Assembly: GCA_022566355.1 (NCBI GenBank)
Contig: JADFJB010000128.1
Span: 1-12,584 of the forward strand
Length of the DNA stretch: 12,584 nt
Source: a candidate division KSB1 bacterium
GTDB lineage: Bacteria; Zhuqueibacterota; JdFR-76; DREG01
Reading direction: 5' to 3'
Part shown: piece by piece, positions 10,900 to 12,584 of the stretch
Layout: every line of letters begins with the position of its first letter
How positions within the stretch are numbered: the first letter of the stretch is position 1
The notes under the pieces: model-generated
Database searches by the model: none
Seen by the model: only the letters and a program-made list of their open reading frames with translations
What the model was told of the DNA's origin: nothing
Translations under genes and position numbers: made by a program

Positions 10900-12516
10900 A
10901 TGCCCCACACAGATTTAACTTTTATCACCAACGAAGAACAAAAAAACCTCAAATCCAGGTTCCAAGCATTAATCAAAGACACCAAACTATTTGACTGCCT
11001 TGTTGGCTATTTTTACACGAGCGGATTCCATGCCATTTATAAGTCCCTGGAAAATACCGAGAAAATTAGAATTCTGATTGGCATAAGCACAAGCAAACAA
11101 ACATATGAACTACTTTCTGAAGCCAACAATGACAAGCAACAGGCACTGCAATTTTCCCATGCGGAAACAAAGCAGGAATATGAGGAGCTTGTTGAACAGG
11201 AGATGGAGAATTCGGAAGATAAACGGGAAGTCGAAGAAGGTGTTGTTAAATTTATCGAATGGATTAAAAACAATAAACTGGAAGTAAAAGCCTACCCATC
11301 CAAAAATATTCACGCCAAATTATATATTATGACTTTTGCCAAAGATGACCGCGATGTTGGAAGAGTCATTACCGGGTCAAGTAATTTTACTTACTCGGGT
11401 TTAGTGGAGAATCTTGAATTTAACGTCGAGTTGAAAAACCATTCGGACTATAAGTTTGCCAAGGATAAATTTGAAGATCTTTGGAAAAACGCCGTAGATG
11501 TCAGCGAAAAATACATTCAAACGATTCAGGAAAAGACCTGGCTCAACCCCGACATAACCCCTTATCAGCTTTATCTGAAATTTCTATACGAATATTTTAA
11601 AGATGAATTGAGTCAAACTGATGAAATGTTTTCCAAGTATTTTCCTCAGGAATTTAAGAAGCTAAAATATCAGGAAGAAGCGGTCTATGACGCCAAGAGA
11701 AAACTTGAGGAGTATGGCGGTGTCTTCATTTCCGATGTCGTGGGATTGGGGAAAACCTACATCTCGGCCATGCTTGCCGGTCAGATTGATGGCAGAACGC
11801 TGGTCATTGCTCCGCCGATTCTGCTTGACAAAACGAATCCGGGTTCATGGCTAAATGTTTTTTCCGATTTTCGGGTTCAGGCAGATTTCGAATCAATTGG
11901 AAAATTAGACCAGATACTTCGAAGAGGAACGGAAAAATACAAAAACATAATCATAGATGAACCTTTTATAATAGCTTGTAATCATGCCAGTTATCTTGAT
12001 GATTTTGCTGTACCCCGTGCTTTCTACCCCCCTATTGATAGGAAATTCCATTTCTATGTCAATTCTTTGTATTTTAAGAATATTCTTTTTAGGATATTCC
12101 TAAATTTATATGAAAGCATACCTGTCGATACAAAAAAAGGCAAGAATCATAAGCAAGTTAATCGAAAGGCAATTGATATGGCAATGAAGTACCTTAAAAA
12201 AGGCGATATAATCTTTATTTTTCCTGAAGGAGCAAGGAGTTTGGATGGTAAATTGCAAAAGGGAAAAGTTGGTATTGCGAAACTAGCATTGGAAGCAAGA
12301 GTTCCTGTCCAGCCTGTTGGTATAATTGGATCTAACAAGATTTTGCCAAAGGGGAAGTTTTTACCCAGGCCAAAAAGGTGCAAAATTAATATAGGGGAGG
12401 CATTATACTTCAAGGAATACTACAATAAAACAATAACAAAAAAATTGTTAAGAGAAGTTACAAACAAAATCATGAGAGAAATAGCAAAATTAATAGGCCA
12501 AAAATATAATTATTGA
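10900..12516 (+). CDS. In-frame chimera: PLD-like nuclease/SF2 helicase N-part fused to PlsC acyltransferase body
   Basis: A 538-residue ORF with ribosome binding site AAGGAA before ATG 10900. Residues 1-215 form a phospholipase D-like nuclease domain, with H138-A-K140 (NIHAKLYI) and GSSNFT (159-164). Residues 216-354 begin an SF2/SNF2-type helicase: KYQEEAV, Walker A GLGKT (282-286), TLVIAPPILL, and Walker B IIIDE (350-354). Such helicases normally run many hundreds of residues beyond DEAH. Here the sequence switches at Glu354/Pro355 (about 11959-11962) to PFIIACNHASYLDDF, the H-x4-D motif (His362, Asp367) of lysophosphatidate acyltransferases, then FPEGARS (441-447) and VPVQPVGI (468-475). 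The acyltransferase lacks roughly its first 30-35 residues. The second part is more AT-rich. The helicase half cannot work as an ATPase without its later motifs. This is either a deletion fusion or an assembly chimera. Confidence 0.85.
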   Translation: MPHTDLTFITNEEQKNLKSRFQALIKDTKLFDCLVGYFYTSGFHAIYKSLENTEKIRILIGISTSKQTYELLSEANNDKQQALQFSHAETKQEYEELVEQEMENSEDKREVEEGVVKFIEWIKNNKLEVKAYPSKNIHAKLYIMTFAKDDRDVGRVITGSSNFTYSGLVENLEFNVELKNHSDYKFAKDKFEDLWKNAVDVSEKYIQTIQEKTWLNPDITPYQLYLKFLYEYFKDELSQTDEMFSKYFPQEFKKLKYQEEAVYDAKRKLEEYGGVFISDVVGLGKTYISAMLAGQIDGRTLVIAPPILLDKTNPGSWLNVFSDFRVQADFESIGKLDQILRRGTEKYKNIIIDEPFIIACNHASYLDDFAVPRAFYPPIDRKFHFYVNSLYFKNILFRIFLNLYESIPVDTKKGKNHKQVNRKAIDMAMKYLKKGDIIFIFPEGARSLDGKLQKGKVGIAKLALEARVPVQPVGIIGSNKILPKGKFLPRPKRCKINIGEALYFKEYYNKTITKKLLREVTNKIMREIAKLIGQKYNY

Positions 12517-12518
12517 AA

Positions 12519-12584
12519 ATGGTTTACCCAATTACAAAAAAGACGATACTCCCCATAATCAGACTTTGGATTAAGGAAGTTAAC
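12519..12584 (+). CDS. Start of a second PlsC-like acyltransferase (partial, runs off window)
   Basis: ATG 12519 lies two bases after the TGA of the chimeric ORF (TGA-AA-TG spacing), and 22 codons are visible, beginning MVYPITKKTILPIIRLW and ending KEVN at the window edge. This resembles the N-terminal amphipathic segment that precedes the NHxSxxD motif in PlsC-type 1-acylglycerol-3-phosphate acyltransferases, which attach a fatty acid to lysophosphatidate at the membrane. It is the very segment missing from the PlsC part of the preceding ORF. No Shine-Dalgarno sequence is seen, so translational coupling is likely if this is genuine. The call rests on a short stretch. Confidence 0.55.
   Translation, partial: MVYPITKKTILPIIRLWIKEVN

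Follow-up and report, generated by a model that had tools for sequence, protein, structure and literature searches.

Near the end of this contig an open reading frame (ORF) joins part of a defence-type helicase to an acyltransferase, which raises the question of whether the two have been fused in a new protein or whether DNA from two different organisms has been joined. The window, the whole 12,584-bp stretch analysed, is the entire contig 128 of a 213-contig draft genome, whose bin is scored as 98.5% complete and 0.21% contaminated. The preliminary description reported that the frame switches from helicase to PlsC directly after the Walker B residues IIIDE. This switch was confirmed by the open ORF, by Pfam and by the ends of blastn alignments. 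No stop codon was found across the junction. Residues 1–354 cover the N-terminal third of a PLD-nuclease/SNF2 helicase, and residues 355–538 are a PlsC acyltransferase. Pfam matched PLDc_2 at residues 44–195 (E 9e-10), which shows that the N-terminal PLD nuclease domain is present, RE_NgoFVII at residues 119–199, ResIII at residues 254–323 (sub-threshold) and Acyltransferase (PlsC) at residues 348–475. The location and description of the break were also correct: GATGAA, which codes for the DE of Walker B, is at 11956–11961 and CCT TTT ATA ATA GCT (PFIIA, from PFIIACNH) starts at 11962. Thus, the source of the sequence changes at 11961/11962, 623 bp before the contig end. The features are listed in Table 1.

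Table 1. Features at the end of the window, with their positions, strand and basis.
Feature	Positions	Strand	Basis or remark
Chimeric ORF, 538 aa	10900–12516	+	Helicase N-terminal third in frame with PlsC
PLD-nuclease/SNF2 helicase gene, 5' third	10900–11961	+	PLD domain, Walker A GLGKT, to Walker B IIIDE
Junction GATGAA/CCT between sources	11956–11964	+	blastn alignment ends and start of archaeal plsC1 similarity
DPANN-type plsC1, 3' part	11962–12516	+	Identity up to 58% to DPANN genes; clade support 99/98
plsC2 (second acyltransferase gene), first 22 codons	12519–12584	+	Severed by contig end

The helicase half is a member of a widely transferred family of bacterial defence genes. The identities between residues 1–354 and the nearest five relatives were 82–86% for protein and 78–81% for DNA, and the genomes of the close relatives are labelled Spirochaetota, Paludibacter, Caldithrix and Neomarinimicrobiota. 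Further relatives, with identities of 60–77%, were from many more phyla and included one in a complete Brocadia genome. One relative, L047, occurs in a bin labelled Parvarchaeota. The protein of the intact relatives matches the PADLOC candidate C3a139 'HKD+Snf2'. Residues 1–354 align end to end with the N-terminal third of this candidate; different from it, the window lacks the ~700 motor residues after Walker B as well as the downstream methylase gene, before whose expected position the contig ends. The blastn alignments of the close relatives terminate at ORF positions 1061–1065, which correspond to 11960–11964 of the window. Past this breakpoint the relatives read DEAHRFRTE..., and most of them reach ~1,060 amino acid residues or more where their contigs permit. 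The complete helicase motor, with a DEAH box and Helicase_C that are both found in the intact relatives, is missing from the ORF, and a search elsewhere in the bin did not find the remaining two thirds of the helicase. Compared with L024, the kept third has 125 synonymous vs 30 nonsynonymous single-change codons. Because the differences are mostly synonymous, the window copy is not decayed, and the helicase part is under purifying selection.

In 19 of the 22 relatives' loci, a type IIG restriction-methylase gene is downstream of the helicase. The loci with an intact helicase and this methylase are L024, L025, L027–L037, L039–L041, L043, L044 and L047, and the pair, which occurs in many phyla and with DNA identities to the window of up to 81%, resembles a compact defence system of two genes that is widely transferred. 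Moreover, the helicase gene is truncated inside the contig in two further cases, one at about residue 123 in a candidate division KSB1 genome (L045, 6001–6380) and one at about residue 220 (L008, 440–1087). Either decay or another false join would account for them. In addition, three contigs of related genomes end within the helicase gene (G002:C82, G042:C356 and G056:C256).

The origin of the PlsC half is different. When residues 355–538 were compared with the host genome and 82 genomes of its phylum, the best match was ~33% identical over most of the length, a maximum that holds at the search thresholds used. PlsC relatives with identities >40% were found neither in the Neomarinimicrobiota sample nor in the sampled phylum of the Berkelbacteria genome. 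Among 371 sampled genomes of the phylum of the L047 genome, the identities reached 58%. The Candidatus Parvarchaeota taxon with which the L047 genome is labelled is placed by NCBI in Archaea, Nanobdellati. The archaeal genomes with PlsC matches are many, range from 0.6 to 2.1 Mb and usually have two of the genes side by side. In a maximum-likelihood tree, PlsC of the window was inside the archaeal plsC1 clade with a support of 99/98 and apart from the proteins of the host phylum. Judged by identity, tree and gene order, the PlsC half is foreign to the host and belongs to DPANN archaea. The preliminary description had proposed that the best-hit taxa of the two halves be compared, and this comparison, a bacterial helicase vs a DPANN PlsC, gave the outcome that it had attached to an assembly chimera.

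The preliminary description missed the start of plsC2 and the contig end that cuts it. The plsC1 stop codon TGA (12514–12516) is followed by 2 nt and then by an ATG opening a frame, MVYPITKKTILPIIRLWIKEVN, that continues to the last base. Compared with the starts of archaeal plsC genes, this frame has up to 14 of 22 identical residues, for example with plsC2 MVYPIGKIIIPAIIRPWIKEISG, and in 8 of 9 archaeal loci plsC2 starts 1–2 nt after the plsC1 stop. Because it has the same gene starts, tandem order and spacing as the archaeal loci, 11962–12584 is one uninterrupted piece of an archaeal plsC1-plsC2 locus that starts ~31 codons into plsC1 and stops after 22 codons of plsC2. Similar to the tandem plsC1-plsC2 of DPANN archaea, the window has an identity of up to 58%, a place in the plsC1 clade, the order of stop, 2 nt and ATG, and a plsC2 start. 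Different from it, however, plsC2 of the window ends at codon 22 and bacterial DNA is attached.

These results bear on the possibility of a functional fusion, in which the PLD nuclease module and the acyltransferase would act on membrane lipids in defence. The frame is continuous and the motifs of both parts are there, with NHxxxxD (as NHASYLD) and FPEGARS kept in PlsC. Purifying selection on the helicase part would also be consistent with such a protein, although the same is expected of a chimera or of a gene truncated only recently. The ATPase, however, is severed at Walker B, and PlsC has lost its N-terminal segment, with helicase sequence in place of ~31 N-terminal codons of plsC1. Moreover, the ORF is followed by the start of an archaeal-type plsC2, and a homologous fusion was absent from every collection searched: no PLD-helicase/PlsC fusion was found among 59 relatives, 139 plasmid records, 25 genome-contig loci and 7 phage records. 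A functional fusion is thus hardly credible. Helicase or PlsC relatives were not found in viral contigs either, and a search of plasmid DNA returned short chance matches only. The preliminary description left the choice between a false join and a novel fusion that had lost its ATPase core. The former is supported by the split taxa of the two halves; the latter is not supported, as no relative of either half is fused. If real, the fusion would have hinted at a membrane-lipid defence effector, and the evidence points the opposite way.

Alternatively, a fragment of DPANN plsC1-plsC2 would have been transferred between domains and have truncated the helicase gene via illegitimate recombination, in which case the fused frame would probably be useless. 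The open frame and the assembly of the contig as a single piece are consistent with such a transfer, as are the wide transfer of the helicase family itself, even into the Parvarchaeota-labelled bin of L047, and the broken helicase copies of other contigs. However, both ends of the archaeal slice lie within genes, its position is exactly at the contig end, and the contig never goes back to bacterial sequence, so a real transfer would need to have left the marks of a chimera by coincidence. It was also seen in no other genome. Thus, a real inter-domain transfer is very unlikely.

The composition of the DNA changes modestly at the junction. The change in base composition noted from the sequence earlier was reproduced, with a GC content of 39% upstream and 33% downstream. 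The helicase half has a tetranucleotide distance to the host genome that is typical, and the tail after the junction is atypical, with only 4.7% of host stretches equally distant. Codon usage did not separate the two halves, and the PlsC half was inside the host range.

A chimeric contig or read, formed in assembly or in the library, very probably explains the apparent fusion, and the joining of 11962–12584 to a bacterial gene at the contig end is almost certainly an artefact and no new protein. The two parts of the window differ in taxonomic origin, the one from a bacterial helicase family and the other from a DPANN archaeal plsC1 clade. Similar to chimeric metagenome contigs as defined previously (PMC8201837), different lineages are joined near a contig end. 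A chimera is also favoured by the contigs of related genomes that end within the helicase gene, by the atypical tetranucleotide composition of the tail and by the lack of the remaining helicase part, plsC2 and an archaeal radA in the bin. In this reading, the bacterial sequence of the contig enters the PLD-nuclease/SNF2 helicase gene, switches at Walker B to the DNA of a DPANN archaeon, runs through the rest of plsC1, the 2-nt spacer and 22 codons of plsC2, and stops there. The join would be in frame by chance, which is expected in 1 of 3 cases. It would have arisen outside the cell, during library preparation or assembly, and the archaeal donor presumably lived in the sample that also held the bacterium. 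The high similarity of the helicase gene between many organisms, which would tangle its assembly paths, is a plausible cause.

A shared GATGAA, which the preliminary description proposed as a possible driver of recombination or of a false join, may form a microhomology at the junction. GATGAA is helicase sequence, and the archaeal plsC1 relatives, whose similarity starts at the P/F of PFIIACNH, vary at this place and mostly have other residues. Any shared sequence is short at most and below the k-mers of common assemblers, so a chimeric library molecule or a gap-closing step may be needed. A fork in the assembly graph would show as an overlap between the contig end and another contig of the bin, and no such overlap was found. 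In metagenome-assembled genomes, misassembled contigs are reported to be relatively rare next to mis-binning (PMC8201837), so the prior for a chimera is not high. The breaks in L045 and L008, which mean either that the helicase gene is sometimes broken otherwise or that it is often mis-joined, also count against a chimera, as does the codon usage of the PlsC half.

Given a chimeric contig, 11961/11962 is where the ORF should be split, with 11962–12584 regarded as archaeal contamination of the contig. If left unsplit, the ORF would be recorded in databases both as a nuclease-acyltransferase fusion and as an inter-domain gene transfer. Moreover, a readable join across domains is possible near a contig end, in a conserved and widely transferred gene, despite the low contamination score of the bin.

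The DPANN loci L086–L095 have a conserved cluster of radA, plsC1, plsC2 and gpsA. In their translated frames, all 10 loci have gpsA and 8 of 10 have radA. Two RadA proteins were tested, and both scored above the curated cut-off for archaeal-type RadA; a single GpsA was tested and scored above the cut-offs of two GpsA subfamily models. Different from these loci, the window has no radA or gpsA neighbours, and the contig stops before gpsA. Neither plsC2 nor an archaeal radA was found elsewhere in the bin. PlsC has been noted in DPANN, though from metagenome bins only (PMC6431249). The linkage to radA would support that DPANN archaea have truly archaeal genes for bacterial-type glycerol-3-phosphate lipids.

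Among the other genes of the window, the MBL-fold gene and the esterase gene are accessory, have few relatives and are weakly informative for placement; relatives of the esterase in the host phylum were 29–32% identical. Finally, 294–2636 encodes a bacterial ROCO protein (LRR-Roc-COR). Its C-terminal domain of ~175 residues has a weak likeness to DUF4062/TIR (E 0.02–0.03, below the cut-off). The GC content of the gene falls from 45% to 33% where this domain begins, and the drop suggests that an effector domain was swapped or that there is a further join.
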